From Lachnospiraceae bacterium P6B14 (lineage in GTDB: Bacteria; Bacillota; Clostridia; Lachnospirales; Lachnospiraceae): a DNA stretch of 46,390 nucleotides. The stretch covers positions 1 to 46,390 of the forward strand of contig JHWZ01000018.1 of assembly GCA_000687695.1 (NCBI GenBank). The letters are read 5' to 3'. This document shows positions 5,169 to 28,399 of the stretch, piece by piece. Positions within the stretch are counted from its first letter, which is position 1. Each line of letters opens with the position of its first letter. The position numbers were made by a program, and so were the translations under genes. A model generated the notes under the pieces. The model saw only the letters and a program-made list of their open reading frames with translations. It had not been told where the DNA came from and did not search any database.

Positions 5169-5248
5169 GGCGCCGGCGGCAGGAGTTTTCTCACAGCGAA
5201 CCAGCGCAGCTGTGAGTCGTGAGAAAAGCTCCGACCGCGTCCGGCGCC
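5169..5248 (+). repeat. Structured intergenic element, family 1 copy A
   Basis: A long imperfect palindrome lies inside the butyrate operon between thl and crt. The outer stem is GGCGCCGG (5169-5176) with CCGGCGCC (5241-5248). The next stem is GGAG/CTCC (5182-5185 / 5229-5232), then TTTTCTCAC/GTGAGAAAA (5186-5194 / 5219-5227), with a single unpaired G at 5228. An apical CAGC-GCA-GCTG hairpin (5202-5212) sits inside. It shares ~70 bp of near identity with the complement of 28315-28399 and the same plan as 12849-12924. It is read here on plus, opposite to operon transcription. Confidence 0.8.
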
Positions 5249-5262
5249 TTTTTAATATACTA

Positions 5263-5290
5263 AACCAGCCGGTCATCTGACCGGCCGGTT
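5263..5290 (-). terminator. Hairpin just after thl
   Basis: A near-perfect 12-bp inverted repeat (AACCaGCCGGTC - ATCT - GACCGGCcGGTT) begins 12 bp past the thl stop on the minus strand and is followed by TTTAG. With no clear T tract it is more likely an attenuator or RNA-stabilising hairpin separating thl from crt expression than a full terminator. Confidence 0.5.
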
Positions 5291-5302
5291 ATAAGTTCTG
5301 AA

Positions 5303-6499
5303 TCAATCCATCTCAACGATAGTTGCGCATCCCATACCACCGCCGATGCAGAGCGTAGCCAGACCCTTCTTAGCGCCTGCCTTCTTCATCTCATGAAGAA
5401 GTGTAACCAGGATACGGCAGCCTGATGCTCCAACCGGATGTCCGAGTGCGATCGCACCACCGTTCGGGTTGAGCTGCTTGTCAACATCGATTCCGAGATC
5501 CTTTCCTACTGCTACTGACTGAGCAGCGAATGCCTCGTTAGCCTCGATGATGTCGAAGTCAGAAATGCTCATGCCTGTCTTCTCCATAACCTTCTTTGTA
5601 GCAGCAACAGGTCCGATACCCATAACCTCCGGACGAACACCTGCAAGTGCTCCTGCAACAAATGTAGCCATCGGAGTAACACCGAGCTCCTTAGCCTTCT
5701 CCTCGCTCATAACTACGATAGCAGCTGCACCATCGTTGATACCTGATGCATTTCCTGCTGTTACGAATCCGTCTTTATTGATCGGACGCATGCCTGCGAG
5801 CTTCTCAAGAGTTACGTCAGGACGCGGTCCCTCATCTGTATCGAAGATAACAGTCTCTTTTCTCTTCTTAACCTCTACCGGAACGATCTCATCCTTGAAT
5901 GCACCGGTCTCGAGAGCCTTTTTGCATTTCTGCTGTGAGTTGAATGCGAACTCATCAAGCTCCTCACGTGTAAGTCCCCACTCGTTGCAGATGTTATCAG
6001 CTGTCTGGATCATGTGATAGTCGTTGAACGCATCCCAGAGAGCATCCTTAACCATCGTATCCACGAGCGCACCCTGGCTCTGTGACGGCCAAGTCATACG
6101 ATATCCGTAACGACCCTGCGGGATAGCATATGGAGCCATGCTCATGTTCTCCATACCACCTGCTACAACCACGTCAGCATCTCCTGCCATGATCATCTGA
6201 GCAGCCTGGTTGACACAGTTAAGACCTGAACCGCAGACAACGTTTGATGTTACAGCCGGAACCTCGATCGGAAGTCCTGCCTTGAGAGTTGCCTGACGTG
6301 CTACATTCTGTCCCTGTCCTGCCTGGATAACGCATCCCATGTAAACATGGTCAACCTGATCCGGCTTAACTCCTGCACGATTGAGCGCTTCCTTGATCAC
6401 GATCGCTCCCAGATCGGCTACCGGGATAGTAGAAAGGCCACCGCCCATTGTTCCAATCGCAGTACGACATGCACCTGCTAAAACCACTTTTCTTGCCAT
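5303..6499 (-). CDS. thl: Acetyl-CoA C-acetyltransferase (thiolase)
   Basis: Thiolase condenses two acetyl-CoA to acetoacetyl-CoA, the first step toward butyrate. The 398 residues are full length with the nucleophilic Cys89 (VVCGSGLNC), His354 in GHPVGASG, and the second active-site Cys384 in CIGGGMG. It is the first gene of the operon. A consensus promoter lies at 6575-6603 with a palindrome between promoter and gene, and an AAGGAGG site precedes the ATG. Confidence 0.97.
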
Positions 6500-6548
6500 G
6501 AAAATAGTCCTCCTTATGATACATAATTTTTCACATGTTACGAACTTT

Positions 6549-6564
6549 TGTCACAAATGTGACA
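6549..6564. promoter_or_regulatory. Palindromic operator candidate upstream of thl
   Basis: TGTCACA-AA-TGTGACA is a perfect 7-bp inverted repeat with a 2-bp centre. It begins 10 bp downstream of the thl -10 box, so it would cover roughly the first transcribed bases, where a repressor would block transcription. It is not the Rex consensus (TTGTGA-N6-TCACAA); the half-sites face the other way. The regulator is unknown. Confidence 0.5.
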
Positions 6565-6574
6565 GTCTTGTTCT

Positions 6575-6603
6575 ATCATAACAAAAATGGCTGACATTGT
6601 CAA
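6575..6603 (-). promoter_or_regulatory. Sigma-A promoter of the butyrate operon
   Basis: On the minus strand, -35 TTGACA (6598-6603) and -10 TATGAT (6575-6580) are separated by exactly 17 bp. It is 76 bp upstream of the thl ATG and is the only strong promoter seen for the six-gene operon. Confidence 0.8.
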
Positions 6604-6634
6604 TGATTTAACGAACGAAATTTTATAAATATTC

Positions 6635-6765
6635 GGAGCAGTATACAATACTTGTACGGGCACGCTTTCGCTTTTTTCTCGTACGTCACGTTGCATGCAC
6701 GGAAAATACCCGTGCTACGCAACGACGTACGAGACACATCCCGTACAAGTATGTATTTCTGCTCC
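6635..6765 (-). repeat. Structured intergenic element, family 2 copy D
   Basis: This 131-bp element lies between the coaD terminators and the thl promoter. Paired segments from outside in: GGAGCAG/CTGCTCC (6635-6641 / 6759-6765); a perfect 13-bp arm ATACTTGTACGGG (6648-6660 / 6740-6752); CTCGTACGT/ACGTACGAG (6678-6686 / 6725-6733); CGTTGC/GCAACG (6689-6694 / 6719-6724); and GCACGG/CCGTGC (6697-6702 / 6710-6715) closing a seven-base loop. Read on minus, the loop is GTATTTT and an AAGCGAAAGCG segment lies in the asymmetric internal loop. Copy E (20977-21109) keeps the same order with different stem sequences. Confidence 0.75.
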
Positions 6766-6781
6766 TCATTATTAGTTTTTC

Positions 6782-6934
6782 GCTCGTTGGGCATCTAAAA
6801 AATGTGCATGTAGCCATCTATGCTACATGCTCGCTATTTTTTTCCTTTTCGCTTATTGGGCATCAACAAAAATGTGCATGCAGCTATCTTTGCTACATGC
6901 ACATACTCTTTTATTTTTTTGCTTGGAGGGCATC
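6782..6934 (-). repeat. Tandem triplication of the coaD 3' end and terminator
   Basis: The last coaD codons (GGGCATC block at 6928-6934) recur at 6858-6864 and 6789-6795, spacing about 70 bp. The two downstream copies each carry a hairpin followed on the minus strand by a T tract: 6872-6904 (13-bp stem, near perfect) and 6806-6830 (9-bp stem). The copies of the coding end have drifted and are no longer coding. The result is a tandem pair of intrinsic terminators behind coaD. Confidence 0.7.
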
Positions 6935-7381
6935 AACAACTGCGGGCGGGACCATTTTTGATACGTCTGAACCGTAGTGCGCGACCTCCTTCACGATTGT
7001 CGAGCTCAAAAATGCGTACTCGAGGCTGGTCGTGAAAAACATAGTATCCACCTCAGGCTCGATGCTGTGATTGGTCTGAGCGATCTGCATCTCCGTCTCG
7101 AAGTCGGTGACGGCGCGCAGGCCTCTGATGATAAGGTTTGCGCCGTTCTGCTTGGCGAAGTCGATAGTCAGCCCCTCAAATGTTTTTACCTTTACATTCG
7201 GGATGTGCCCGGTCGTCTCCTCGATGAGCTTCACCCTTTCCTCTCTTGTAAACAGAGGATTCTTCGCGCTGTTTACCAGCACACCGATGATGAGCTCGTC
7301 GACCACCTTTGCTGCTCGCTCGATGATATCGAGATGTCCATAGGTTACCGGATCAAAGCTTCCGGGATAGATTGCTTTCAT
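6911..7381 (-). CDS. coaD: Phosphopantetheine adenylyltransferase
   Basis: CoaD transfers AMP from ATP to 4'-phosphopantetheine, the penultimate step of CoA synthesis. The 156 residues match the family length. Motifs are [10 protein letters not shown] (8-17, with the nucleotidyltransferase HxGH-type turn), the [12 protein letters not shown] segment, and [10 protein letters not shown] toward the end (the family's usual SSSxVRE is changed here to SSTIVKE). Its start is 5 bp after the CoA-transferase stop and its ribosome site (GAGGTAA) includes that stop, so the two genes are co-translated, joining CoA supply to CoA-dependent butyrate release. Tandem terminators follow. Confidence 0.95.
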
Positions 7382-7386
7382 TCGTT

Positions 7387-8730
7387 TTACCTCTTATTTG
7401 ATCTGCGCCACAAGTTCATCTTCTCTGCCTCGGCGATAAGCTCGTCTCTGAAGTCAGGATGCGCAACGCTGATAAGTCTCTCTGCACGCTCCCATGCGGA
7501 ACCGCCCTTAAGGTTTACGATACCGTACTCCGTTACGACATACATCACGCACGGTCTCGGATCGGTCACTACTGCTCCATCAGCCAGTGTCGGACGGATA
7601 CGTGAAACTGTCTCTCCTGCCTTATTGGTAAATGTTGACGACAGGCAGATAAAGCTCTTTCCGCCCTTTGACTTGTATGCACCGAGCACGAAGTCGAGCT
7701 GGCCGCCAGCACCCGAGATGTTCTTGGTGCCGGCTGACTCAGAGTTAACCTGTCCGTAAAGGTCTATATCGATCGCATTATTAATAGAAATAAAATTATC
7801 ATGAGCTGAGATTACATCGATGTCATTTGCATAGTCTACAGGCACGCTCATGCACTCCGGGTTATTGTCGAGGTAGTCATAGAGCTTTTTGGTTCCTGCG
7901 CCGAATGCGTAGGTCTGACGGCCCTTGTTGATATTTTTGCAGTTACCTGTGATCTTTCCTGCCATAGCCATATCGACGAATCCGTCCACATACATCTCGG
8001 TATGCACACCGAGGTCCTTCAGATCAGACTCTGCGATGAGAGCACCAACTGCGTTTGGCATACCTCCGATTCCGAGCTGCAAGCATGCTCCGTTCGGGAT
8101 GCGCTCCACGATGAGCTTTGCCACTGCCTTGTCGATGTCAGTCGCAGGACCTCCTGCCGGAAGCTCACCGATCGGCGGGTTATCTCCCTCGATGATTCCC
8201 GTTACCTGTGACACGTGGATCCTCTCATCGAATCCGCCCAGACAACGAGGCATATTTGTATTTACTTCTACATAGACTTTCTCCGATCTTGAGATGGCTG
8301 CTGCCATATGAGATGCGCTCGGTCCGAAACTGAACCATCCGTGAGCATCCATCGGTGACACCTGGAACACATTTACCGCGATGTCGTCCTCGAGATCACG
8401 ATAGTATCTCGGAAGCTCTGAATAGCGGATCGGTCCGTAGAAAGAGAACCCTTCCGCGATAGCTTTTCTCTCCACTCCGCTCATATGCCATGAGTTCCAT
8501 GTAAAGTGCTCTGCCGGATTCTCGATCTTGAATACCTCCGGAACCCACATAAGGATTCCGCCTCGCAGCTTCACATCCTTGAGGTTTGGCATTTTTTTAG
8601 CGAGCGCCGCGTCAAACGCAACAGGTGTATTTGCGCACCAGCCGAAGTCAACCCAGTCTCCGTCCTTAACCTGCGCGGCAACATCATCCGCACTCACCAG
8701 CTTCTGTTTGTAGATCTCCTGATAGTCCAT
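7387..8730 (-). CDS. but: Butyryl-CoA:acetate CoA-transferase
   Basis: This enzyme releases butyrate by moving CoA from butyryl-CoA to acetate. It belongs to the acetyl-CoA hydrolase/4-hydroxybutyrate CoA-transferase family. The 447 residues include [15 protein letters not shown] (218-232, CoA site) and [12 protein letters not shown], whose Glu245 corresponds to the catalytic glutamate known in the family. A GAGG-like site precedes the ATG. It heads a two-gene unit with coaD beside the butyrate operon; together these genes form a complete acetyl-CoA to butyrate route. A related propionate or 4-hydroxybutyrate transferase cannot be wholly excluded, but context favours butyrate. Confidence 0.92.
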
Positions 8731-8781
8731 GTTTTATACCTCCGTTTTTGTTTTTGTTTTATTATTTCATCTTAAAAATGC

Positions 8782-10458
8782 CTAGCACACCGGCCTGCCG
8801 ACGATATCATTTTTGCTGCCGCCATAGCCTGTACCACGGGCGCCCCATGTCAGATCGACCATAGGCCTCTTCCCTTCAAAACCGTACAACTGATAGCCCG
8901 TGATCATCTCCACGTGACTGATTCCCTTATATCTTCCGTTTTTTGCCCCTGTCAAAAATAGCAAGTCACCCGGAAGATATTTAAGCTTTGATATTTTATT
9001 GTAGTTAAACTTTCCGACTAATCTTTTATGATTAGCGCACCACTTGCCCAGATCAGCAGCCGTCGGCGCATAACCCTTTGCACCGGCCACAGCTATACCT
9101 CCGCTCTTATATGCCTTCCATACCAAAGCGCTACAGTCATAGTAACCCTTTTTCATGCGCTTTTCCTGCGAATACTTCCAGTGTGTACCGATGAATGTGG
9201 CTCTCGCACAGGCTTTGGTCACACCCTTTTTTACAACAGATACCAGGCATCCGATACGGCTTCCGTCCATGTCAACATAGATGATGGCATTGCCTGTCTT
9301 TTTGCCCTTGACCTTACCACTTCCGGACACCGATGCAACCTTGGCATCAGTTGACTTCCACCCCGGTGAACCCGGATAATTTTTGAGCTTTAAAACAAAG
9401 CTTTTTCCCTTGTCCAATACTCTTACTTTAGTAGCAATATTAACAACCTTACACTCAATATGAACAGTGAACGGAACGCCGTTCAGATAGAATGTCACAT
9501 CACCCGAACCGCTTTCGTATATACGTATACTAACCGTTTTATTCTTAGGGTTCAAAAATACACTGCCGCTCTCCAGACTTCCGGTTGACTTTCCGCTATC
9601 AACAGATGAATACGTAAAGTCAACATCACTCTTAAACTGTACGGTAGCATATCCGGTTGCATAGTCATCCATCATATAAACTGTCACGTCATTTTTCTCA
9701 AGAGTAGCTGATGAAGTATCATTAGACGCGAGGAAAACAAAAGTCGTTTTCATGGTTCCGCAGGTCGCAATAACTGTCGCCTTTCCTCCGCCAACGATAC
9801 AGTAGGTATGCTCCTTCTCATCGATCTTTACTACGGACGGGTTATCCACACTGTACTGTATCTGCTCACCTGCAAACTCGTCATATGCGAGAGTCTTGCT
9901 CCTGTAATAAGGAACTATCGCATCGTCTTCATACCAGTCGTCATCATCATATGAAGAAAATGTAATACGTCCCTGATCACCATAATAAAAATAGCTTGGA
10001 GAATAATCATCCTCGTCATAGTCGCCCGGATAATCATAGGTGTTTTCCGTGATATCTACTCCGTTATAAAGAGTTATATTTCTGTACGGATATTTGGTTA
10101 TATCATAATACTCTTCGTCGTAGTCGTCGTCCTCATCATCATAGCCGGAGTCATCGTCATCATCATAGTACGAATCATCATCCTCATTATAATCATACCC
10201 GTCGTCATCCTCGTCCATCAGATGATATATACTGCTACCGTACTCTGATGTTCTTGCATCAGCTTTTTTCGCACCGCCGAAAACAAAAATGATAACAACC
10301 GCCAGAATAATAGCGATGATACCAATCCCAATAAGCACCTTCGGGTTCGCTCTTTTCATCGGTTCAAATGGACTGGTATGATAATCCTTATATCTGTCGT
10401 TTATTATCTCTTCGATCTTCTCTTCATTTATTTCTTCATTCTTTTCATTGTTTTCCAC
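8782..10458 (-). CDS. Membrane-anchored NlpC/P60 cell-wall hydrolase with Asp-rich stalk
   Basis: This is a 558-residue envelope protein. Residues 1-42 are acidic/charged and presumably cytoplasmic, followed by one membrane segment (about 43-65, LIGIGIIAIILAVVIIFVFG). Residues 80-150 are dominated by Asp, Tyr and Glu (runs such as DDDDDSGYDDEDDDYDEEYY), possibly a calcium-binding or extended spacer. Two Ig-like (Big_2-type) units follow (about 200-250 and 340-405, ending KTGNAIIYVDMDG). The C-terminal NlpC/P60 domain has Cys442 (YYDCSALVWK) and His515 (ISHVEM). It probably cleaves peptidoglycan stem peptides outside the membrane. It is 51 bp upstream of the CoA-transferase gene, likely by chance. 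Confidence 0.85.
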   Translation of the reverse strand: MENNEKNEEINEEKIEEIINDRYKDYHTSPFEPMKRANPKVLIGIGIIAIILAVVIIFVFGGAKKADARTSEYGSSIYHLMDEDDDGYDYNEDDDSYYDDDDDSGYDDEDDDYDEEYYDITKYPYRNITLYNGVDITENTYDYPGDYDEDDYSPSYFYYGDQGRITFSSYDDDDWYEDDAIVPYYRSKTLAYDEFAGEQIQYSVDNPSVVKIDEKEHTYCIVGGGKATVIATCGTMKTTFVFLASNDTSSATLEKNDVTVYMMDDYATGYATVQFKSDVDFTYSSVDSGKSTGSLESGSVFLNPKNKTVSIRIYESGSGDVTFYLNGVPFTVHIECKVVNIATKVRVLDKGKSFVLKLKNYPGSPGWKSTDAKVASVSGSGKVKGKKTGNAIIYVDMDGSRIGCLVSVVKKGVTKACARATFIGTHWKYSQEKRMKKGYYDCSALVWKAYKSGGIAVAGAKGYAPTAADLGKWCANHKRLVGKFNYNKISKLKYLPGDLLFLTGAKNGRYKGISHVEMITGYQLYGFEGKRPMVDLTWGARGTGYGGSKNDIVGRPVC

Positions 10459-10511
10459 TACCGATTCACCTCTTGAATTCCAAAATCATATTTAAAACAT
10501 CTCCGTAAGAC

Positions 10512-11780: not shown

Positions 11781-11815
11781 ATGATCACCCCTTAGTTCTA
11801 CCTTTCATCACTATA

Positions 11816-12823
11816 TTATTTCAGCTTATCAAATCCCGAATCATGTCCATCTTCGTAAATAAATGCCGCCTTATAAAATGGATTCTTTTCAAGAACTGCT
11901 TTTGATCGTTCTTCGCCCATTACAAAAAAAGCAGTCGCATATGCGTCACACAGTAACCCATTCGGACCAACCACCGTCACGGATGCAAGCCCGTTATCGG
12001 CAGGAGCTCCTGTCTTCGGATCCATTATGTGATGATATCTTTTTCCATCCTGCTCAAAATAACGCTCATAATTTCCGCTCGTTACTACAGCGTTATTTCT
12101 AGCTACGATCTTTTCATATACGGAAGAAGGATCCTTTGGATCAGCGATACCGACTGTAAAATCAGTCCCATCAGGTTTGGTCCCGACAGACTGCACATTT
12201 CCACCGAGTGAAACTATACCGTTCACATTGTTGGCCTGCATGATCTCGCAGAGCTCATCAGAAAGGTAACCCTTCGCACACGCACCGAGGTCTATCTGCG
12301 CATCCCCACGCATGGAAACATTATGATCCTCTGAGACGTATACCTGCTTATAGTCAACCTTCTTAAGCTCATTTTTTATCTCATCATCAGATGGAACCCT
12401 GTTCTTTCCGGTCGTAAATCCCCATAGCTTCACGATGGGATATATCGTCGGATCAAACCGTCCCTCTGTTTCATCAGCTACCTTTATAGCACTGCTGAGT
12501 AGATAATATGTATCTTCAGAAACTTTAACCGCTGCGCCCTTTGCAGCGTTCAGCTTGGATACATCACTGTCCTTTTTAGTCACTGACAGTTCAGCTTCCA
12601 TCTGATAAATCCGGTCACGCATCTCCGTCATGATATCAGAGAGTTTCTCGTCAGTCTTATCCGTTTTATACAGCGTGATATCCATCACGGTATCCATCGC
12701 AAAAAACTGCTCGTAGAGCTTCTCGTCGTCGCCGCTCCTATTGAGGCGCATTACCACAAGAATACCGACAACTAATACCAAAACTACCGCCAAAGCTATC
12801 AGTTGTTTGTTATTATTCACCAT
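11816..12823 (-). CDS. apbE: FAD:protein FMN transferase (ApbE family)
   Basis: ApbE attaches FMN covalently to Ser/Thr of target proteins such as subunits of Rnf or Nqr. The 335-residue protein has an N-terminal membrane anchor (about 8-27), FAMDTVMDITLYK, the central IDLGACAKGYLSDEL, the HHIMDPKTGAPAD loop and the metal-binding DAYATAFFVMG near the end. No typical lipobox is seen, so it is probably held by an uncleaved signal anchor. No Rnf genes are in the window. A GGAG site precedes the ATG, and a family 1 structured element lies upstream. Confidence 0.92.
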   Translation of the reverse strand: MVNNNKQLIALAVVLVLVVGILVVMRLNRSGDDEKLYEQFFAMDTVMDITLYKTDKTDEKLSDIMTEMRDRIYQMEAELSVTKKDSDVSKLNAAKGAAVKVSEDTYYLLSSAIKVADETEGRFDPTIYPIVKLWGFTTGKNRVPSDDEIKNELKKVDYKQVYVSEDHNVSMRGDAQIDLGACAKGYLSDELCEIMQANNVNGIVSLGGNVQSVGTKPDGTDFTVGIADPKDPSSVYEKIVARNNAVVTSGNYERYFEQDGKRYHHIMDPKTGAPADNGLASVTVVGPNGLLCDAYATAFFVMGEERSKAVLEKNPFYKAAFIYEDGHDSGFDKLK

Positions 12824-12848
12824 AAAAACTCCTTGCGAAGTGCTCTCA

Positions 12849-12924
12849 CGCGAGCGGCGGTAGTTTTCTTCCGAGGAACACTTTACAGTGTGAGCGAGGA
12901 AGAAAAGCTACCATAGCGCTCGCG
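12849..12924 (+). repeat. Structured intergenic element, family 1 copy C
   Basis: Between alaS and apbE. The outer stem is CGCGAGCG (12849-12856) with CGCTCGCG (12917-12924). GGTAG/CTACC (12859-12863 / 12908-12912) and TTTTCTTCC/GGAAGAAAA (12864-12872 / 12898-12906) follow, with one unpaired G at 12907. The apical hairpin is ACACT-TTAC-AGTGT (12878-12891). Compared with copies A and B the stem bases differ but remain paired, while the TTTTCT/AGAAAA core and the bulged G are kept. Confidence 0.8.
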
Positions 12925-12930
12925 TATATA

Positions 12931-15570
12931 TCACCCAAGTTGAGTCTTCATTACATCAATAGCTTTAGCGAGCGCCTCAGGTATCTTGTCGGGATTCTTT
13001 CCACCCGCCTGTGCCATGGCCGGCTTTCCACCGCCACCGCCACCAACGATCGCAGCGACTTCCTTGATAAGGTTTCCTGCATGAGCACCCTTGCTCATCG
13101 CGCCCTCCGTCGCAGTCGCAACCAAACTGACTTTGCCGTCAGCCGCGGAAGCAAGAACGATAAACGCCTCGCCGAGTTTATTCTTCATATCATCAGTAAG
13201 CTGACGCATGCCGTTCATATCGACACCGTCAAGCTGCTTAGTCAGAAGCTTGATTCCGTTGTAATCCTCAGCCTCACTCGAAACATCACCTGCCGCATCC
13301 TTGGCAAGCTTTGCCTTCAGCTTTTCATTTTCCTTCTGAAGAGTCTTGACCTCTTCCTGAAGTCTTGATACCTTCTCATCAATTTCAGAAGGATTGCTCT
13401 TCAGGATAGTTGCCACCTTGTGAACCATCTCGTCAGATTTATTCAGATACTCGATAAGTCCTACCGAAGTGAGCGCCTCGATACGACGTACTCCTGCAGC
13501 TATACCACTCTCGGAAATAATCTTGAACGAGATAATATTTTTGGTATTTGAAACATGAGTACCACCGCAAAGCTCTGTTGAGAAATCTCCTATCTCCACA
13601 ACGCGCACGCGTTCTCCATATTTCTCTCCGAAAAGCGCCATCGCGCCCATTTTTTTAGCCTCGTCGAGAGTCATCTCCTCAGTGAGCACCGGCAGTCCGA
13701 GATTGATCTGCTCATTTACGATCTTCTCTACCTCTGCGATCTCATCGTCTGTCATCGGTGAGAAATGCGTGAAGTCGAAACGAAGTCTCTCCTGATCCAC
13801 ATATGAACCCTGCTGCTCAACATGACTTCCGAGCACACGACGCAGCGCCTCCTGCATAAGGTGAGTCGCTGTATGGTTGTTCGCGGTAAGCGCTCTGCGG
13901 CTCTCGTTAACGTTAAGGCGCGCGGTCTCACCTATGCTGATGGATCCGTCTAATACCTTTCCGACATGACCGATCTTCGTTCCCTGCAGGTGGATAACGT
14001 TATCCACGCGGAACAGACCGCCATCGGTCTCAATCATTCCTATATCATTCAGCTGACCACCCATCGTGCCGTAGAAAGGAGTTTTCTCCACGATGATGGT
14101 TCCTTCCATGCCTGATTCCAGCTTATCTACGATAGCATTTGTAGAGGTCATCGCCGTGATCTTTGAGAAGAACTCAAGTCTTTTGTATCCGACGAACTCG
14201 CTCTCGATAGAAGCGTCGATCTGCTGATAAACAGTCTCGTCCGCACCCATATAGTTTGTCTCTTTACGAGCGGCACGAGCGGTCTGACGCTGATTTTCCA
14301 TCGCCTTGTCAAACTCTCTCTCGTCAACCGTAAAACCGTTCTCTGCCAAAATCTCGATGATCAGGTCGAGCGGGAATCCGTAGGTATCACAAAGCTTGAA
14401 CGCCTCCTGTCCCGGAAGCACCGTCTCATCGATTATTCTCAGCTGAGACATCTCATCCTCGAGGATAGCTAAGCCCTGGCTGATAGTGCGATCGAAGTTC
14501 TCCTCCTCAACACTGATAACCTTTTTGATATACTCACGACGTCCCTCGAGATCAGGATATCCCGACTTCGAGTCATCGATCACGACCTCACTTAAGTCTG
14601 ACAAAAATGTTCCCTCGATGCCAAGCAGCCTTCCGTGACGAGCCGCACGACGTAACAGACGACGAAGCACATAACCGCGTCCCTCGTTCGACATGGTCAC
14701 ACCATCGGAAACCATAAATGTAACGGATCTGATATGATCCGTGATAACTCTTACCGACACATCAGTCTTGTGATCCTTGCCATACTCAACACCTGCGATA
14801 CGACAAACCTCCTCACGCAGATGACGGATGGTATCCACATCAAAAATAGAATCAACGTCCTGCATAACGGTTGCCAGACGCTCAAGTCCCATACCCGTAT
14901 CGATATTCTTGGTCGCGAGCTCCTCGTAACCGCCATGTCCGTCACCCTCGAACTGAGTGAACACATTGTTCCAAATCTCGATATAACGGTCGCAGTCACA
15001 GCCGACGGTGCAGTCAGGCTTGCCACAGCCGTATTTCTCTCCACGGTCAAAATATATCTCAGAACACGGACCACACGGGCCTGCACCATGCTCCCAGAAA
15101 TTGTCCTCCTTGCCGAAACGGAAAATCCTCTCCGGAGCGACACCGACCTCTTTTTCCCAGATCTCAAACGCCTCGTCATCATCCTCGTAAACAGACGGAT
15201 AGAGCCTGTCTGCCGGGATCTCGAGTACCTCTGTCAAAAATTCCCAACTCCACTTTATAGCCTCATGCTTGAAGTAGTCACCGAATGAAAAGTTTCCGAG
15301 CATCTCAAAAAATGTACCGTGTCTCGCTGTGTGACCGACATTCTCGATATCACCGGTACGGATACATTTCTGGCATGTAGCCACCCTCTTTCTCGGCGGG
15401 ATCTCCTGACCGGTGAAATACGGCTTCAAAGGCGCCATACCGGCGTTGATTAAAAGCAGACTGTTATCGTTCTGTGGAATCAGAGAAAAGCTCGGCATCA
15501 CGAGGTGATCCTTGCTCTCAAAAAAGTCCAGATACATCTTTCTGAGTTCATTAAGTCCGTAAGGTTTCAT
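12931..15570 (-). CDS. alaS: Alanyl-tRNA synthetase
   Basis: This enzyme charges tRNA-Ala. The 879 residues are full length. The catalytic domain contains RHGTFFEMLGNFSFGDYFK (motif 1 region). The editing domain contains the zinc ligands NNHTATHLMQEAL and ELCGGTHVSNT, and the C-terminal oligomer domain ends with a Gly run (VGGGGGGKPAMAQAGG). The AGGAGG site is just before the ATG. The leader is only about 100 nt after the promoter at 15673-15702 and has no visible T-box. Confidence 0.98.
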   Translation of the reverse strand: MKPYGLNELRKMYLDFFESKDHLVMPSFSLIPQNDNSLLLINAGMAPLKPYFTGQEIPPRKRVATCQKCIRTGDIENVGHTARHGTFFEMLGNFSFGDYFKHEAIKWSWEFLTEVLEIPADRLYPSVYEDDDEAFEIWEKEVGVAPERIFRFGKEDNFWEHGAGPCGPCSEIYFDRGEKYGCGKPDCTVGCDCDRYIEIWNNVFTQFEGDGHGGYEELATKNIDTGMGLERLATVMQDVDSIFDVDTIRHLREEVCRIAGVEYGKDHKTDVSVRVITDHIRSVTFMVSDGVTMSNEGRGYVLRRLLRRAARHGRLLGIEGTFLSDLSEVVIDDSKSGYPDLEGRREYIKKVISVEEENFDRTISQGLAILEDEMSQLRIIDETVLPGQEAFKLCDTYGFPLDLIIEILAENGFTVDEREFDKAMENQRQTARAARKETNYMGADETVYQQIDASIESEFVGYKRLEFFSKITAMTSTNAIVDKLESGMEGTIIVEKTPFYGTMGGQLNDIGMIETDGGLFRVDNVIHLQGTKIGHVGKVLDGSISIGETARLNVNESRRALTANNHTATHLMQEALRRVLGSHVEQQGSYVDQERLRFDFTHFSPMTDDEIAEVEKIVNEQINLGLPVLTEEMTLDEAKKMGAMALFGEKYGERVRVVEIGDFSTELCGGTHVSNTKNIISFKIISESGIAAGVRRIEALTSVGLIEYLNKSDEMVHKVATILKSNPSEIDEKVSRLQEEVKTLQKENEKLKAKLAKDAAGDVSSEAEDYNGIKLLTKQLDGVDMNGMRQLTDDMKNKLGEAFIVLASAADGKVSLVATATEGAMSKGAHAGNLIKEVAAIVGGGGGGKPAMAQAGGKNPDKIPEALAKAIDVMKTQLG

Positions 15571-16314: not shown

Positions 16315-18107
16315 CACGTCTGCCACGCTCCCAGCATATCACCGCTGAAGATCAGAATAACCTTGTTTTTCTTGTTCAAAAATACTCCGAACTCAGCCCA
16401 GCTTGAGCCTTGCGGCCATTTTTTATTAAACTTTTTATTGAACCATTTTTTTGATTTGATAGTTGCCTTTTTACCGTCGGCATCCGCGTCATAGATAACC
16501 TTGCAACCCTTGGCAAGCTTGTATGTATATTTCTTCTTTTTCAGCTCGCCGGATTTGTTTGTGAGATACCGGCTTCCTCCGTTTCCGTTACTGAAATTCA
16601 TCCAACAAATATATCCGTTTTTATTCTTCTTGAAGGTTATCTTTTTACCCTTGATCTTTCCGGTTACATTTGAGTAACGATTTGTCACGTACTTGTACTT
16701 TTTCAAGTACTTTGTATAGTTCATCTTCTTTTTCTTCGTCGATGTGAACGAGGACGAAGATGCCTGGGTCTTGTGTGTAAGTATCTCGTAACCCTGAGGT
16801 CCCACTTCCTCATCTTCCTTTGAAATGATCCGGATATAGTAACGTGTATTTGTTTTTAATTCCTTTGAAAGATCTGCATATACAGTATTACTGTTTACCA
16901 AAACATAGTATACAAAATCTCTCAGATCGATGTCCGAATAGATCTCAAAATACACCTGTTTATCACCATAAAAATCCATGGAATAAACATAGTTTCCCGT
17001 GTCGAAATACAGTACATCCTGATCTTTAGTGCTATCTATTTTTCCTGAAGTATATCCGTCTGTATTTGCCTCTGCTGCTGTGTAGCCGTCTCTTCCGGGA
17101 TCCACCGTCCATGTGGAGCCCGGACTGGTGGTCGGCTTAGCTGATGCAGTAGGTGTAGCGCTCGGCTTCGGTGATGCTGATGGCGTGGCACTCGGCTTCG
17201 GCGATGCCGATGGTGATGCACTCGGCTTAGCTGACGGGGTTGGTGTAGGCGATACCGCGCCTTGCGGTTCAAGCTTAAACGTGTATCCAACAGGTATTCC
17301 GCATATACCGTTTCCGAACTCTGTCTTTATATAATAGCGCGTGTTTTTTTCGAGTAAATTTTTAAGATTGATAGTTCTTGACTCACTTTTGAACAACATA
17401 TAATAGTCCACCCGCTGAGTACACTCAGCATCCTTATAAAAATGCAGATTTACACTGCCTACAACACCTTCTTTTCTGTCGTCAGTTTTTCCGACAAGGT
17501 TATATGTATTATCTCCGGTATCAAAAACATAAACATCAGTATCCCTGACACCTTCAACCTTTTTGTAATACTCAACTCCGGGCTCAATAGTCTCCGCTCC
17601 GCTCGCTGTATCAGCCTCGGGATCCACATATGCCATTACGGATACAGTCGCATTGATGACCGAATCGGTTCTTCCTCCAAAAAGAATGTAATAAGTGGTA
17701 TTTGGCAAAAGGTTATTTCCACCTCCACCGACATCCCCGATCGAGTAACTGTTATCCATGGTATTTGAATGATGTATGCAGTCATCATAGTCGAGAGAAT
17801 CCGTAATATAATACTCGGGATAATAATTGTTGTCTGACCCACTCCAGATAAAATGATAATATGTTCTGGCTTCACCTGTTGTAGTAAAAGAATATGCAGA
17901 ATAATGAGAACTGTCTACACCAGGAATTCTTCTTTCGATGCTGACAGTTGTCTGTGTATTTAGAGGGATCGATCCTTTGGCCGTCACATACTTAGCTGTA
18001 TTAGATGCAGCAGTAGCCGCCTTAGGCCCTGTCGGTATCAGATTCCATACCAGTGCCAAAACAAGTACGATCGCAACTCTCGCTTCCCATCTTTTCATTT
18101 TTCTCAT
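16314..18107 (-). CDS. Secreted protein with Ser/Pro-rich linker, function unknown
   Basis: This is a 597-residue exported protein. A basic N-terminus and hydrophobic segment (VAIVLVLALVWNLIPTG, about 11-27) ending in a KAATA-like site form a signal peptide. Two similar beta-rich repeats (about 35-160 and 170-285, the second with DVYVFDTGDN and NLLEKNTRYYIKTE) resemble bacterial pre-peptidase C-terminal type domains. Residues about 288-335 repeat SAKPSASPSAS-like units, a flexible spacer. A third beta unit follows (about 350-450, NTRYYIRI again), and a Lys/Tyr-rich C-terminus with KKKMNYTKYLKKYKY may bind anionic wall polymer. No catalytic site was recognised. It overlaps the cyclo-ligase gene by 3 bp. 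Confidence 0.7.
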   Translation of the reverse strand: MRKMKRWEARVAIVLVLALVWNLIPTGPKAATAASNTAKYVTAKGSIPLNTQTTVSIERRIPGVDSSHYSAYSFTTTGEARTYYHFIWSGSDNNYYPEYYITDSLDYDDCIHHSNTMDNSYSIGDVGGGGNNLLPNTTYYILFGGRTDSVINATVSVMAYVDPEADTASGAETIEPGVEYYKKVEGVRDTDVYVFDTGDNTYNLVGKTDDRKEGVVGSVNLHFYKDAECTQRVDYYMLFKSESRTINLKNLLEKNTRYYIKTEFGNGICGIPVGYTFKLEPQGAVSPTPTPSAKPSASPSASPKPSATPSASPKPSATPTASAKPTTSPGSTWTVDPGRDGYTAAEANTDGYTSGKIDSTKDQDVLYFDTGNYVYSMDFYGDKQVYFEIYSDIDLRDFVYYVLVNSNTVYADLSKELKTNTRYYIRIISKEDEEVGPQGYEILTHKTQASSSSFTSTKKKKMNYTKYLKKYKYVTNRYSNVTGKIKGKKITFKKNKNGYICWMNFSNGNGGSRYLTNKSGELKKKKYTYKLAKGCKVIYDADADGKKATIKSKKWFNKKFNKKWPQGSSWAEFGVFLNKKNKVILIFSGDMLGAWQT

Positions 18108-19101: not shown

Positions 19102-19119
19102 GAGACGTATACCCCATCT

Positions 19120-20895: not shown

Positions 20896-20976
20896 TTAGA
20901 TAATTCCTTCTCATTCATTCTTTATTCTTTTCTTTTATCGCAGACACCGTATTCTTAATTTCGTACTTGTATCGCA

Positions 20977-22390: not shown

Positions 22391-22424
22391 TTTTCAATTC
22401 CTATCGTGTTATTTTTCAAAAATG

Positions 22425-23660: not shown

Positions 23661-23765
23661 ATTTTACCGTCTCCTTATAATCGCGCATGTATACATCCGA
23701 GATACATGTCGCATAAGTAACTTATCCCTTTAATTTTGTTACAGAATTGTTACATGTCGAAACAA

Positions 23766-23794
23766 ATTATAACGCGTTTCCGTTCTTTTGTCAA
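23766..23794 (-). promoter_or_regulatory. Promoter of the C40 peptidase gene
   Basis: On minus, -35 TTGACA (23789-23794) and -10 TATAAT (23766-23771) with exactly 17 bp between: a perfect sigma-A consensus, implying strong expression. Confidence 0.85.
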
Positions 23795-23814
23795 TACTTT
23801 TTCGGTAAAAAAAT

Positions 23815-23844
23815 AATCCGTACTTCAAAAACAAAGCACGGATT
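23815..23844 (-). terminator. Terminator of the HD-GYP/FapA unit
   Basis: The 11-bp arms AATCCGTaCTT/AAGcACGGATT close a loop, and on minus they are followed by ATTTTTTT. It lies 68 bp after the HD-GYP stop. Confidence 0.7.
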
Positions 23845-23911
23845 TTCGTATCTTTTCACAATATCTTGTACTGACAGACTACACAAGTCGACAAAATATT
23901 ACTATTCATTG

Positions 23912-24565
23912 TTATTTATCTTTATTTTCTTCTCGTGCCAAAAGCACTTCAAGCTCCGGTCTTGACGCAATAAACGCGTTTACAAGCTTCGGAGAAAAAG
24001 AACCACACTCTCCGTTTACGATCATGTCATAAACCTCCAGCTTCGGGATAGCCGCTTTATGAAGTCTGTCACCCAGAGCATCCTCATACGCATCGGCAAG
24101 TCCTACTATCTGCGCACCGATAGGGATATCATCGCCCTTTTTATGCTCCGGATATCCGTCGCCATTGTACCTCTCATGATGATTTAAACATATCGATGCA
24201 GCGAGCTTGAAAAATACTCTGTCCTCATCACCCTTCGGGAGGTGCTTAAAAACATCCTTAAACATCTTTTCACCCTTGTAGGTATGGCTCTGATATATCT
24301 CATATTCCGTATCGGTAAGTCTTGACGGTTTATTTACTATTCGATCAGGCAGCTTTAGCTTACCTACATCATGAAGCGTTGCGGCGCTGGATATCATCTT
24401 CGCCATATCCTTGCTTATACCCAGATCAGGATACATCTTGCGAAGCTTTTCCACAAGGACATAGGAAATCATACCAACACGCCTTGCATGCTGGTTCGTG
24501 ATATAATCCCTGTTCTCGATAATGGCACCGAAGTACCGCGCCATTCTTACGCCGGCTTCATCCAT
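23912..24565 (-). CDS. HD-GYP domain protein, putative cyclic-di-GMP phosphodiesterase
   Basis: A 217-residue protein made of one HD-GYP domain. Metal ligands are in NQHARRVG (about 24-31) and AATLHDVGKLKLPDRIV. The defining GYP signature is present as NHHERYNGDGYPE, and the downstream IVGLADAYEDAL (D-A-Y/F-D motif) is clear. No sensor or receiver domain is attached. The expected role is hydrolysis of cyclic-di-GMP, although some HD-GYP proteins act on other dinucleotides. It lies 14 bp after the FapA-type gene and shares its transcript and terminator. Confidence 0.85.
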   Translation of the reverse strand: MDEAGVRMARYFGAIIENRDYITNQHARRVGMISYVLVEKLRKMYPDLGISKDMAKMISSAATLHDVGKLKLPDRIVNKPSRLTDTEYEIYQSHTYKGEKMFKDVFKHLPKGDEDRVFFKLAASICLNHHERYNGDGYPEHKKGDDIPIGAQIVGLADAYEDALGDRLHKAAIPKLEVYDMIVNGECGSFSPKLVNAFIASRPELEVLLAREENKDK

Positions 24566-24579
24566 ATTTGTCCCCCATG

Positions 24580-26982
24580 TTACAGTTTTGTTCTTATCTT
24601 GTAACCAACCCTGCCGTCTTCCTTAACGAAGATGACATTTTTGAGTGTATCTCTGACCAGATATACAACCGAGCTGATGAACACACGTGTACCCGGATAT
24701 ACGGTACCCTTTACCTCGATCGTCGCGTTTTGCTGCTGGCTCATCTTGAATATTTTTATTTCGCGCTCCTCCAAAAGGCCTTTGATCTCTTTTTTCTGCG
24801 TATACAGAGCCTTGGTCAACTGATCGTAGAACGCTTCCACTTTTTCGTCGCGTTCCGGCATAGCCATGATTTTTTCGATACCTTCCTCGAGAGTATCTAT
24901 ATCCTTTTGAACCTTTTCGCAGCGGTCCATGAGTTCCTGATAGGCTCTGGTATCTCCATCGCCCACACCAACCTCGACTATTGACTTACTCTCCGCAACA
25001 TTTCCGATTCCGAAACACTCGAGGCCGGTCTTCGCGGTAGTGTGACCGCCTATGATTACGCCTCGTCTTCCTGCCACCTGCAAAAATGCCTCGGTGACAG
25101 TATCGCAATTCAGAAGGTATGTGCAAGTGATATTTCCTTCTGCTCTGATCGTACATGATTCGAAGAACTGTCCTATGATCACACCGCCGGCGACAATCTC
25201 CGAGGTGCCACGCCCCTGGACACCGCCCTTGATAAGGACATCATGGCCGGCATAGATAGAGCATGCCTCACAGTTTCCTCCGATGGAAACATTACCGGAT
25301 GCAGAAATCATAAATCCGCTCTCCACGTCACCTGAGATATCCACATCTCCATCGAAGTTGATATTTCCGACTGACAGATCCACATTTCCGGTAACCACAT
25401 AAACATTTCTGATCTCTATAGTCTCGTCGTCGACCCACTCGATAATACCCGTGATATCGGCAATATACTGTTTTTTATCTTCAGAAATATAAAAGCCCTT
25501 ACCCTTGAGCGCCGGTAGATCATGTCCTCTTTCGGGTGTAAGGATATTTCCGTGAACATCATAACCAAACTCTCCGGCAGTAGCAGCGATATAGTCCGCG
25601 ATGACCTGTCCCTTCTCTACTGTCTCAAAAAGCTCAATACCCTTATAATCTACAGCGCCGTTCGGCAAAAGCTTCGGCTCACTTTTTACTTCCTTGCGGA
25701 AATGGAACTCAAACCTTCCGTCCTCACCACGCACGGCCGGCTTTCCTTCCGCGATGACCATATCCGTGAAGTACAGCTTCTCGTCGGTCATCTGTTTGAT
25801 AACATCTTTCTTTATGCCCTGCTTGATGTCATACTCACGCAAAGCACGCATAACGTCTCTGACACCGATAACAGCATCGTTTGTAGGCTGAGTGATACTC
25901 ATAGTCACACTCATTTTGTCCTCGGAAACGACGATATGTATGTCTCTCTTTATCTCCTGCTCGAGTTGCTCGGTATCCTCAATTTCCTTTGAGATATTTC
26001 CGATGAGTTCCTTTGCGAGAGCAACGGCAGGATCTACGACCTCCTCCTGCTCCAAAAGCTTCTCTGCCTCGGATGCGATATCGAAATCGATAGCCGGCAG
26101 ATCGTCCATCGACAAAAGGTCTGATACCAAAGAGCCCGCGAGAATCTGATCGATCTGCTCCTCGTAATCTCCCTCCTTGGCAACCTTCTCGCGAAGCTTT
26201 GCAATCTTCTCGGGCTCGAGTCCTACCTTCGCAAACTTGGAAGTGTTCAACCCCTGCTCGATACCTATTACGATCTCTTTCATCTGCTCCGGAGTGAAAT
26301 CCGGATTCATAACAGGCTTCATATCGAGCTTTTTCTCGAGTCCCTCACGGATGATCTGCATCTGCATCCAGTTGAACCCGCTTCCGGCATAGAGAGCAAC
26401 ATTTACGTCGTTCTCAATACCGGCGATAAGTTCACGAAGCTGAACTCCGTACAGGTTCAGCCCCAGATACGGAGTCAGATTTATATCCTTTTCATGCGCC
26501 TCAATAAGAGCCGCAAGCTGATCGCTGTCATAGCCATTATCCAAACGCTCCGCCAGATCAATTCCCGCGATGCGTCCACGTACGTACTCGAGCACAGGTC
26601 TACCCTGATGCCCTTTGCCGACAACGACCATTGCGTCTATATTGTTTTCTTTTCCGAGAGCGAGAGCTCTGATGGTAAGCGGTTGAAGCCTCGGGTTGGC
26701 ATATATAGACATGTTGACCCCGCGCTCCATACCTGCTCTGACCTCATGCATCTGGTACGAGGTCAGGTCTGTTTTTGCATATACAGAGACGTCGAGACCA
26801 TTTTTAAGACCGGATCTGATTTCCTTCATCTGCAGGGAATTAAACTCCTTCCTTGCAAATAAAGACACATCGACCCCGTCAGCCATACCCTCACGGATCT
26901 CCTCGCACTGAAGCGCGTCGAAGCCCTGTTCAAGGTAGGATGTGATATCGATCTCCTTGTCCTTTGCCTCTGCCTCTGCCAT
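24580..26982 (-). CDS. FapA (DUF342) family protein with N-terminal 26-residue repeats
   Basis: An 800-residue cytoplasmic-type protein. Residues about 10-270 hold roughly nine units of ~26 residues with the pattern F-x3-Q-M-x-E-I-R-x-G-x3-G-x-D-V-S-x-Y-A (for example FNSLQMKEIRSGLKNGLDVS), degenerate near the fourth. From about 350 on is the FapA/DUF342 core: DHLP-like (RGHDLPALKGKGFYISEDK), then a beta-helical stretch (VGNINFDGDVDISGDVESG, VSIGGNCEACSIYAGHDVLI) of the polymer-forming kind. A coiled coil (about 685-750) and a beta tail end it. FapA relatives affect flagellar or surface assembly; the partner HD-GYP gene suggests a link with cyclic-dinucleotide control. No flagellar genes are nearby. 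Confidence 0.82.
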   Translation of the reverse strand: MAEAEAKDKEIDITSYLEQGFDALQCEEIREGMADGVDVSLFARKEFNSLQMKEIRSGLKNGLDVSVYAKTDLTSYQMHEVRAGMERGVNMSIYANPRLQPLTIRALALGKENNIDAMVVVGKGHQGRPVLEYVRGRIAGIDLAERLDNGYDSDQLAALIEAHEKDINLTPYLGLNLYGVQLRELIAGIENDVNVALYAGSGFNWMQMQIIREGLEKKLDMKPVMNPDFTPEQMKEIVIGIEQGLNTSKFAKVGLEPEKIAKLREKVAKEGDYEEQIDQILAGSLVSDLLSMDDLPAIDFDIASEAEKLLEQEEVVDPAVALAKELIGNISKEIEDTEQLEQEIKRDIHIVVSEDKMSVTMSITQPTNDAVIGVRDVMRALREYDIKQGIKKDVIKQMTDEKLYFTDMVIAEGKPAVRGEDGRFEFHFRKEVKSEPKLLPNGAVDYKGIELFETVEKGQVIADYIAATAGEFGYDVHGNILTPERGHDLPALKGKGFYISEDKKQYIADITGIIEWVDDETIEIRNVYVVTGNVDLSVGNINFDGDVDISGDVESGFMISASGNVSIGGNCEACSIYAGHDVLIKGGVQGRGTSEIVAGGVIIGQFFESCTIRAEGNITCTYLLNCDTVTEAFLQVAGRRGVIIGGHTTAKTGLECFGIGNVAESKSIVEVGVGDGDTRAYQELMDRCEKVQKDIDTLEEGIEKIMAMPERDEKVEAFYDQLTKALYTQKKEIKGLLEEREIKIFKMSQQQNATIEVKGTVYPGTRVFISSVVYLVRDTLKNVIFVKEDGRVGYKIRTKL

Positions 26983-27030
26983 AAGGCCCTCCTGTTACAC
27001 TACAGAAAAATACGCCCTACTTAACAATGG

Positions 27031-28191
27031 TTACTCTGTGATTTTCGCCGCGTCACCTACGAGCTTTGATACCTCTTTGTAGATGTACGAGCTACGGATA
27101 TAATGCTCAAACGGCATAGCCGTTCCATAGTACTCTTTGTATGCTTTTTTGATACTCTCTACGGTACCATCCGAACTCTGCTTTCCGAGATCCTCGGTAT
27201 AAGCATCGATGGTTGCCTGAGAAAGATCAATATTCTCTTTGAGAGCAATAGCCTCCATGATAAGCTCGGTCTCCGCCATCGGCTTTGCCTGCTCTACGAG
27301 GTAATCCTCGAACTGTTCAGGGGTCTGACCAAACTGTGCGAGCGCATCAGAGATTGACATACCATACTGTGCCATCTGGTTCTCCATCTGAGCACGCATC
27401 ATCTCCTTCTCTGCAAGAAGAAGTGACGGCGGTATATTTTTAACCTTTGAATTGCTTACAACCTGCTCCATTGCTGATGTAGGAGCATTTGCCTTTTTGG
27501 AATCCCTGAGAGTCTTTTTCAAGGAATCCTTGTACTCCTGAACTGTTTTGTAGTCAGTATTTTTAGCAACATACTCATCAGTAAGCTCACGATTTTCGAT
27601 GTAGTTGAGCTTCATGGTAAATACGGTTTTCTTTCCTGCGAGATCAGGATCGTTCGGATACTCCTCAGGGAATGTGAGCTCCACATCCTTTTTCTCACCG
27701 ACCTTCATGCCGATGATACCGTCATCAAATCCCGGGATCATGCTGCTCTCTCCGAGCTTGATAGTTGTTCCCTTAGCAGTACCACCGTCAAACTTTTTGC
27801 CATCGAGTTTTCCGCTGTAGTCGATGTTAACGCTCATTCCGTTCTCGGCAGTTCCCTCTTTTATCTTCTGCGGATGCTCATCAAAAAGCGCATCGATGTC
27901 GCCCTGGATTTCCTCGTCTGTTACTGTACAGTCAACAGGGATACCCTTGTACTCTCCGAGTTCTACGAGCTCGGTTGCGTCATACTCCTCGATATCTACT
28001 GCCTGACCCGATACATAGGTCGGAAGTGCGGCAGTGCCTGAAGCGCTTACACTCTGCTCATCAGCTGCGGAACCACTTGCTGCCCCCACAAACTTCTCAG
28101 TAAAATCGTCCATCGAGCAGGCTGTAAGGCATGCAATCGATAAAACAGCTGCGGCGGCAATCGTCATTACCGCTCCCTTTCTCTTATTCAT
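27031..28191 (-). CDS. Lipoprotein peptidyl-prolyl isomerase, trigger-factor-like
   Basis: A 386-residue exported foldase. The signal peptide ends in the lipobox LTAC with Cys25 as lipidation site. After an Ala/Ser-rich spacer comes an FKBP domain (about 115-195: NIDYSGKLDGKKFDGGTAKG, IPGFDDGIIGMKVGEKKDVEL), then a long helical C-terminal domain resembling that of trigger factor (IPPSLLLAEKEMMRAQMENQM and on). It likely assists folding of secreted proteins at the outer face of the membrane. It is not the cytosolic ribosome-bound Tig, which lacks a signal peptide. Promoter at 28244-28272. Confidence 0.87.
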   Translation of the reverse strand: MNKRKGAVMTIAAAAVLSIACLTACSMDDFTEKFVGAASGSAADEQSVSASGTAALPTYVSGQAVDIEEYDATELVELGEYKGIPVDCTVTDEEIQGDIDALFDEHPQKIKEGTAENGMSVNIDYSGKLDGKKFDGGTAKGTTIKLGESSMIPGFDDGIIGMKVGEKKDVELTFPEEYPNDPDLAGKKTVFTMKLNYIENRELTDEYVAKNTDYKTVQEYKDSLKKTLRDSKKANAPTSAMEQVVSNSKVKNIPPSLLLAEKEMMRAQMENQMAQYGMSISDALAQFGQTPEQFEDYLVEQAKPMAETELIMEAIALKENIDLSQATIDAYTEDLGKQSSDGTVESIKKAYKEYYGTAMPFEHYIRSSYIYKEVSKLVGDAAKITE

Positions 28192-28243
28192 TTTTTGTAA
28201 TCCTCCATTTCATTATGAATCATGATGTAAGTACATCTTTTTT

Positions 28244-28272
28244 ATTTTATCACATACTACACATATTAGCAA
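28244..28272 (-). promoter_or_regulatory. Promoter of the foldase lipoprotein gene
   Basis: On minus, -35 TTGCTA (28267-28272) and -10 TAAAAT (28244-28249) with 17-bp spacing. It lies between structured element B and the gene. Confidence 0.5.
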
Positions 28273-28314
28273 GTAAATACGGAAAAAACACTAAATTTTC
28301 ACATTTCAACGACC

Positions 28315-28399
28315 GCCGCATCGGACGCGGTCGGAGCTTTTCTCACGACTCACAGCTACGCTGATTCGCTGTGAGAAAACTCCTGCCGCCGAATGCGGC
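28315..28399 (-). repeat. Structured intergenic element, family 1 copy B
   Basis: It lies between gpsA and the foldase gene. The outer arms GCCGCATCGG (28315-28324) and CCG-A-ATGCGGC (28389-28399) pair with one bulged A. The inner core is the complement of copy A with very few changes over about 70 bp, including the TTTTCTCAC/GTGAGAAAA stem, the extra bulged base beside GGAG, and the CAGC-tac-GCTG apical hairpin. Unlike A, it is in the same direction as transcription here. Confidence 0.8.

Follow-up and report, generated by a model that had tools for sequence, protein, structure and literature searches.

A clade-confined family of short interspersed palindromes defined by shape in Lachnospiraceae bacterium P6B14 and its relatives, probably working like REP and RPE repeats

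Rickettsia palindromic elements (RPEs), of about 150 bp, are confined to their lineage and occur between genes as well as in frame within unrelated protein genes, nearly half of them being intragenic in R. conorii (PMC10969869). Repetitive extragenic palindromic (REP) elements of the GTAG/CGTC kind and bacterial interspersed mosaic elements (BIMEs) are described as lying between co-directional or convergent genes and near 3′ ends, as forming dimers of opposite orientation, and as having intragenic copies, many in DNA-repair genes; CGTC REPs lack a dedicated transposase, and the words Firmicutes and Clostridi are absent from the text (PMC3733652). In E. coli, REPs located no more than 15 nt from a stop codon are reported to reduce translation (PMC12306157), and Correia, ERIC, BOX, and other repeats resembling miniature inverted-repeat transposable elements (MITEs) are non-autonomous, transcribed, and foldable (PMC10969869). 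This report concerns a family of palindromic elements found in a stretch of 46,390 nucleotides from Lachnospiraceae bacterium P6B14 (contig JHWZ01000018.1, positions 1 to 46,390; hereafter the window) and in related genomes. With a probability of roughly 0.7, it is a new clade-specific family of short interspersed palindromes that works like the REP and RPE repeats but is assigned to neither.

The window contains three copies of the element, and all three stand where the original prediction had placed them (5169-5248 and 12849-12924 on the + strand, 28315-28399 on the − strand):

Copy A: 5166..5248, + strand, subtype I with a GGAG/CTCC foot (R1 covariance model, 78.8 bits, E 3.1e-16)
Copy A outer stem: 5169-5176, GGCGCCGG
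Copy B: 12844..12927, + strand, subtype II with a GTAG/CTAC foot (R1 91.7 bits, E 2e-19)
Copy C: 28315..28399, − strand, subtype I (R1 74.5 bits at 28317-28399, E 3.6e-15)

Copies A and C are closely related, with two differences over 65 core positions, and copy B represents a separate subtype. All three fold far below shuffled controls: relative to dinucleotide shuffles, the z scores of the DNA fold are −4.6, −6.6, and −4.4 for copies A, B, and C, those of the RNA fold range from −5.0 to −6.8 over both strands, and none of 200 shuffles folds as well in any DNA or RNA fold. The predicted common plan of a variable outer stem, a GGAG/GTAG foot, a T-rich stem, one bulged base, and an apical hairpin proved correct, and the compensatory stem changes are real.

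A strict pattern recovers nine copies in the own genome (G000), copies A–C included, and the first covariance model, built from these nine, has 24 matches there, the weakest being truncated with an E of 2.7e-4. A total of 125 model matches were collected, from which four reverse-strand shadows of palindromes and two partial matches were dropped; the remaining 119 (118 distinct) were used for letter tallies, gene context, flanks, stop distances, and strand wobble counts. The model has 85 positions, and complete matches extend over 73-132 nt, mostly 75-105. The family is defined by its shape, and the stem sequences turn over with compensatory changes. Briefly, an outer stem leads to an internal loop, at whose near-invariant junction CGGC faces GCG; beyond it come an inner stem with one bulged base, apical GAG...GAG loops, and a hairpin at the tip. 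Where the outer stem meets the internal loop, G14, C15, C75, and G76 are found in 118/118 copies and C12 and G74 in 117/118, figures that are somewhat circular because the collecting model already expects these letters. The bulge keeps its position throughout the family, as predicted, but not its base: the G thought to be constant occurs in only 70 of the 118 distinct copies, the others having T (18), A (17), C (5), or a gap (8). Similarly, the T-rich core is unchanged among the three copies of the window but is replaced elsewhere, with pairing retained. The GTAG/GGAG motif (model columns 17-20) is paired inside the hairpin and varies together with its partner, and the element ends and flanks show low conservation.

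Among 123 distinct copies, 97.5% of 2372 stem cells hold standard pairs, compared with 75.4% after shuffling and 37-59% (maximum 59.1%) when the partner is slid, which bears out the covariation described from the three copies. The covariation score is 0.546 against 0.166, and 454 cells are changed on both sides against 112 in shuffles; these figures are somewhat inflated, the alignment having been fitted to the model structure. Changes on both sides occur at all 13 pairs of the inner stem and in 18 of 20 pairs overall, although the latter count is a weak discriminator, as shuffles average 15.6 and 19 of 500 reach 18. The inner-stem cells of the 118 distinct copies comprise 1477 Watson-Crick pairs, 18 G-T, 8 A-C, 23 other combinations, and 8 gaps. 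Open frames are not commoner than in shuffles (3.04 against 3.16 per copy), and a coding role by design was rejected on this ground. Rfam gives no match at gathering score in the window and none at E up to 1 in five loci (15,218 bases), so that identity with an Rfam family, which would have counted against the original prediction, was not found.

Two sequence features accompany particular copies. A second small palindrome, AACGAACTGNNNCAGTTCGTT, occurs with at most one mismatch at four places of the own genome (G000:C1:118640, C8:76971, C2:245690, and C7:23323), all within copies of the family and at two different internal positions. Many of the copies in G026 (L100-L112, L128) have a conserved extra segment of about 20 nt before the 5′ arm that resembles ATGGAAGCACAATC..CAATGT.

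The search for further copies that had been proposed also succeeded outside the own genome. The first covariance model matches in 9 of 61 genomes searched, the own genome counted, and with the refined model, rebuilt from the 125 matches, 10 of the genus's 39 genomes prove to carry the family. The bearers hold at least 24 (G000), 19 (G002), 2 (G007), 2 (G008), 1 (G009), 13 (G010), 12 (G011), 25 (G015), 24 (G026), and 20 (G061) matches, which are lower bounds because only the best 120 candidates per genome were scored; a known pair, G000:C1:75330 and its neighbour, is absent from them. None of 343 other genomes sampled from the order matches, at a reduced sensitivity (best 13 candidates per genome) with which 13 of the own copies were recovered. 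When genome_contigs (84,980 species) was scanned for the exact pattern, 37 stretches emerged, and every one lies in one of six assemblies of uncultured bacteria (RUG381, RGIG8302, UBA9840, RUI433, Tb.RUG.1, and SRR8387714_bin.46), one of which is labelled water-buffalo rumen. In a thiolase tree of 30 genomes, eight bearers form one clade (support 0.853), to which G022, without copies, is sister with a joint support of 1.000; the bearers G010 and G011 are outside the tree, their thl match being short or missing. Because the bearers on this tree form a single clade and no match was found elsewhere in the order, the family looks like a lineage-specific amplification, and patchy spread across the genus was rejected. 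Copy A has no match in the phage collection, copy B none in the plasmid collection, and the exact pattern none among viral contigs; carriage by phages, plasmids, or viruses was rejected on these null matches, which for phages and plasmids concern one copy each. Among the titles and abstract openings covered, the literature names no such family in this clade, which is no proof of absence.

The position of the copies relative to genes, with classes taken from a codon-scored gene caller, is strongly biased. Sixty of the 119 matches are antisense between tandem genes, 29 lie on the genes' strand between tandem genes, six are between convergent genes, none is between divergent genes, seven are intragenic, and 17 are at contig or locus edges. 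Divergent gaps account for 0/85 gaps with an element and 33/301 of other gaps of at least 40 nt (p 2.7e-4). The mixed orientation claimed earlier is right in that both orientations occur, but the statement was too weak, as antisense singletons outnumber same-strand ones by 50 to 19 (p 2.4e-4). Furthermore, the upstream stop codon is no more than 15 nt away for 38 of the 60 antisense copies, whereas spreading them evenly over their gaps would bring only 13.2 that close. Close pairs are in −/+ order with their 5′ ends facing in 11/11 cases, some of which are orthologous and therefore not independent; the tandem pairs G000:C14:6382/6456 and L258 are exceptions.

All seven intragenic copies are in frame, three on the strand of the gene and four opposite, and their host proteins were confirmed by Pfam: ftsK/spoIIIE (G000, G002, and G015), hypF (G026 and G011), mfd (G026), and miaB (G026). 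The family thereby adds peptides to FtsK, Mfd, HypF, and MiaB. The HypF protein of G026 contains a block of 39 residues that its G011 counterpart lacks, the latter having an insertion of its own at another place; in MiaB, residues 276-318 have no match in the PDB chain 7mjv, for which the alignment breaks off at residue 221 and continues at 226; and the Mfd insert falls within a region left unaligned by phmmer. A translation of L122:3190-4980 was set aside as apparently spurious. The variable linker of FtsK (L070, L080, L097, and L259) contains different elements in varied orientations in G000, G002 (two matches), and G015, and apparently also in G061 (L259, placed via flanks only). By eye, about 24 bp of host hypF sequence recur as an inverted near-copy beside the hypF copy of G026 (L104:4207-4303), as though one flank had been copied across the hairpin. 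Far-flank inverted complementarity is generally weak, the 95% control level being exceeded in 16 of 116 cases where about 6 would be expected, and was rejected as a general feature, the hypF case being anecdotal.

Seventeen own copies were placed in fetched loci of the closest genome, G061, these loci being mostly chosen because they hold matches. Eight of the copies have 98-100% identity with their counterparts, another seven stand opposite an element that is different or altered (53-80%), and for the remaining two there is no model match. The eight shared copies differ at 4 of 675 positions, measured on pairs picked as 98-100% identical out of the 17, while their flanks differ at 63 of 639 positions over the nearest 40 bp to either side and at 925 of 8653 further out. 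This freezing suggests that some copies are retained for a role. At other sites, the content differs. At site A, G061 has a truncated remnant of another subtype, which G002 and G009 have in full, and the site is empty in G007 and in G015 (a 26-nt gap); the site orthologous to L065:8030 is empty in L085; and site C of G061 holds a different member at the same place and in the same orientation. A single-copy site is occupied in opposite orientations in L068/L255, the content appears exchanged in the same orientation in L064/L251, and half-hairpin deletions are seen in some copies. In eight orthologous pairs compared for stem changes, seven involving G002 and one G000/G061 (ftsK), 16 stem pairs are changed on both sides and still paired, eight show a one-sided wobble, two are broken, one is otherwise changed, one is gapped, and 132 are unchanged. 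The ftsK pair L070/L259, which is 74% identical and possibly a replaced copy, accounts for seven of the 16 double changes.

The empty sites were also inspected for what preceded an element. An origin of the outer stem from insertion into a GC-rich palindrome or terminator was rejected, none being seen by eye at the empty sites inspected. The empty site of L085 that matches L065:8030 contains CTGATA-CA-TATCAG, a short inverted repeat situated where the element would be inserted (about 4090-4103), and the empty site of L131 has a TATATATA run; with these two, small AT-rich palindromes may serve as insertion targets.

Compared with the described systems, the family shares with the RPEs its comparable size, palindromic form, confinement to a lineage, and location both between genes and in frame in unrelated protein genes. 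The in-frame insertion that characterizes RPEs is found here in four gene families, cleanly against an insertion-free homologue for HypF and MiaB. By contrast, only 7/119 matches are intragenic and the frames are no more open than in shuffles, and the likeness to RPEs is by description only. With the GTAG/CGTC REPs it has in common the position behind genes and between unidirectional or convergent open reading frames (ORFs), dimers of opposite orientation, and intragenic copies; it differs as a longer multi-loop hairpin with full stem turnover. Antisense copies within 15 nt of a stop codon resemble the E. coli REPs in position, the family being different otherwise. Conserved terminal inverted repeats mark the Correia, ERIC, BOX, and other MITE-like elements, whereas the ends of the present elements are variable paired arms. 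Integron attC sites are likewise imperfect hairpins known by their shape, and they too have extrahelical bases and a terminal structure that varies; the present elements differ in being dispersed single copies, and no cassette arrays were noticed, although neither attC core motifs nor an integrase were searched for.

That these elements constitute a family of palindromic interspersed repeats is highly likely. The original prediction had left the choice between a structured RNA and a palindromic mobile repeat; the genomic behaviour fits the latter, as the copies are numerous and confined to a clade, occur in both orientations, occupy sites whose orthologues are empty, form divergent pairs, and are inserted in genes, while pairing gives neither RNA strand clear support. 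The element may spread as a non-autonomous DNA hairpin that is recognised by its shape and mobilised in trans by an enzyme other than a Y1 (IS200/RAYT) transposase. The recognition of shape, which we infer from constant loops combined with changing stems, is a tentative proposal to which we give slightly less than even odds. Many inserted copies would have been retained as mRNA hairpins directly behind the stop codon, with a presumed effect on termination, recycling, or 3′-5′ decay between operon genes. Judged from sequence, such a post-stop hairpin is the likeliest retained role, and whether a role of this kind is in fact retained stands at about even chances. To our knowledge, no transposase is known behind the spread of RPEs, and the spread of small palindromic repeats without a known transposase is an open question on which this family bears; it is also good material for seeking a shape-recognising recombinase.

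Several observations weigh against this explanation. Among the same-strand copies only 4/29 have the stop codon at 15 nt or less, so that a post-stop role cannot cover all copies, and the half-deleted copies indicate that copies are also lost. The freezing is not general: apart from the selection of the eight pairs, the divergence adjoining them is uneven (1 to 25 of 80), and in comparison with G002, the next relative, freezing is limited to the pair L065/L085 (99 and 100%), the seven other own copies that face an element of the same orientation being 56-86% identical, somewhat above to well below their flanks. No insertion event was caught, and no target-site duplication was seen by eye at the compared sites. 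A mobiliser did not emerge either: the Y1 transposase domain Y1_Tnp (PF01797) is found in 0/10 bearers, several of which are incomplete assemblies, and in 10/29 other genomes of the genus, and reverse transcriptase is found in 3/10 bearers and 14/29 non-bearers, without association. A reverse-transcriptase partner was rejected accordingly, as were transposase or recombinase neighbours: 117 flanking proteins contain 199 Pfam families, and the 25 commonest of these include no such enzyme.

Other origins of these observations were weighed. If the family were a host structured RNA, either a cis-acting mRNA element or a small RNA, that was merely duplicated, selection for RNA pairing would have produced the covariation; its strength, the near-freezing of the eight G000/G061 copies with their loops, and the preference for transcribed positions are all in keeping with this. 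The copies nevertheless take both orientations relative to transcription, include in-frame insertions in ftsK, mfd, hypF, and miaB, and match no Rfam family. Moreover, wobbles are few and show no concentration on the strand that is transcribed (9 G-T and 9 A-C in 916 antisense cells; 7 and 1 in 443 same-strand cells), and their rarity on both strands means that no particular RNA strand is clearly supported; a host RNA is rather improbable. A mutational origin has a similar, rather low standing. In quasi-palindrome correction, hairpin template switching copies one arm from the other, which would keep the arms complementary and give covariation without functional meaning. Pairs that are nearly all Watson-Crick are what one-arm copying predicts, the orthologous pairs show 16 double changes against eight wobbles and two broken pairs, and one copy is flanked by the inverted near-duplicate of host hypF DNA. 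Arm-copying does not, however, explain why loop letters and bulge position are conserved or why the eight shared copies are frozen in their loops too, and the possibly replaced ftsK pair supplies much of the double-change count. Stem turnover together with occupied, empty, half-deleted, and exchanged sites in close genomes offers material to separate selection for pairing from hairpin-copying mutation. An element propagated by shape only is likewise unlikely: here an enzyme would recognise the folded strand (CGGC/GCG junction, bulge, and GAG loops) irrespective of the stem sequence and preferentially rewrite occupied sites, so that loci persist while their content, and once their orientation, is exchanged wholesale between close genomes and unexchanged copies can stay frozen. 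Site C and L064/L251 (same orientation), L068/L255 (opposite), and site A over its remnant would be examples, and the covariation would then be a signature of shape-specific propagation.

Ordinary REP/BIME elements mobilised by a REP-associated tyrosine transposase (RAYT, Y1) would share the GTAG/GGAG foot, the divergent pairs, the post-stop position, and the intragenic copies, all habits described for GTAG/CGTC REPs (PMC3733652). This origin is very improbable, and RAYT/REP mobilisation, that of REPINs included, was rejected, as no bearer has Y1_Tnp though 10/39 genomes of the genus do; furthermore, the foot is paired in the hairpin and changes with its partner, no unpaired GTAG/CGTC end tag was seen, and the elements measure about 75-105 nt and not 20-40. 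Identity with a REP family, which would have counted against the original prediction, accordingly fails on tag, size, and Y1 partner alike. Intrinsic transcription terminators that are alike by convergence are unlikely, and as an account of the whole family they have next to no probability. The hairpins are strong and lie behind genes, and on the + strand a TTTTT follows copy A. A terminator nevertheless combines a GC-rich hairpin with a U tract, and at least six T in the next nine bases of the transcribed strand follow only 2/60 antisense and 0/29 same-strand copies, a simple scan finds no terminator-like site at copy A, and complex loops are common to the family. The reading as a clade-specific mobile palindrome, working like REP and RPE repeats, is thus the one preferred here.

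The genes that neighbour the three copies in the window are as follows:

4348..5136, − strand, enoyl-CoA hydratase/isomerase family gene (crt-like), downstream of copy A (Pfam ECH_1, E 5.5e-66)
5303..6499, − strand, thiolase gene (thl-like), upstream of copy A (Pfam Thiolase_N, E 8.6e-94)
11816..12823, − strand, ApbE family gene, downstream of copy B (Pfam ApbE, E 1.1e-87)
12931..15570, − strand, alanyl-tRNA synthetase gene, upstream of copy B (Pfam tRNA-synt_2c, E 4.4e-198)
27031..28191, − strand, trigger-factor-like peptidyl-prolyl isomerase gene, downstream of copy C (Pfam Trigger_C and FKBP_C)
28407..29306, − strand, NAD-dependent glycerol-3-phosphate dehydrogenase gene, upstream of copy C (Pfam NAD_Gly3P_dh_C, E 3.1e-59); an alternative longer start at 29420 is possible

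Copy A is antisense to both flanking genes, with the thiolase stop codon 54 nt away, and its location between thl and crt, as noted at the outset, is borne out by Pfam. Copy B is antisense and is preceded at 3 nt by the stop codon of the alanyl-tRNA synthetase gene, and copy C, on the strand of its neighbours, is preceded at 7 nt by that of the glycerol-3-phosphate dehydrogenase gene. Post-stop copies between operon genes, in one case the thiolase and enoyl-CoA hydratase genes, may tune expression, as had been suggested for copy A.

Other repeats were seen in the window alongside the family. Two adjacent 70-nt units at 6798-6937, 77% alike and each with an inverted repeat, lie at the 3′ end of the ORF at 6911-7381 (− strand). 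A two-copy repeat (78%) occupies 37478-37656 and 44410-44576, and motifs of 46 nt or 28 nt are shared near it at 35605, 37438-37447, and 43836. Finally, four 27-nt units with a 30-nt spacing are found within a long ORF at 17132-17248.

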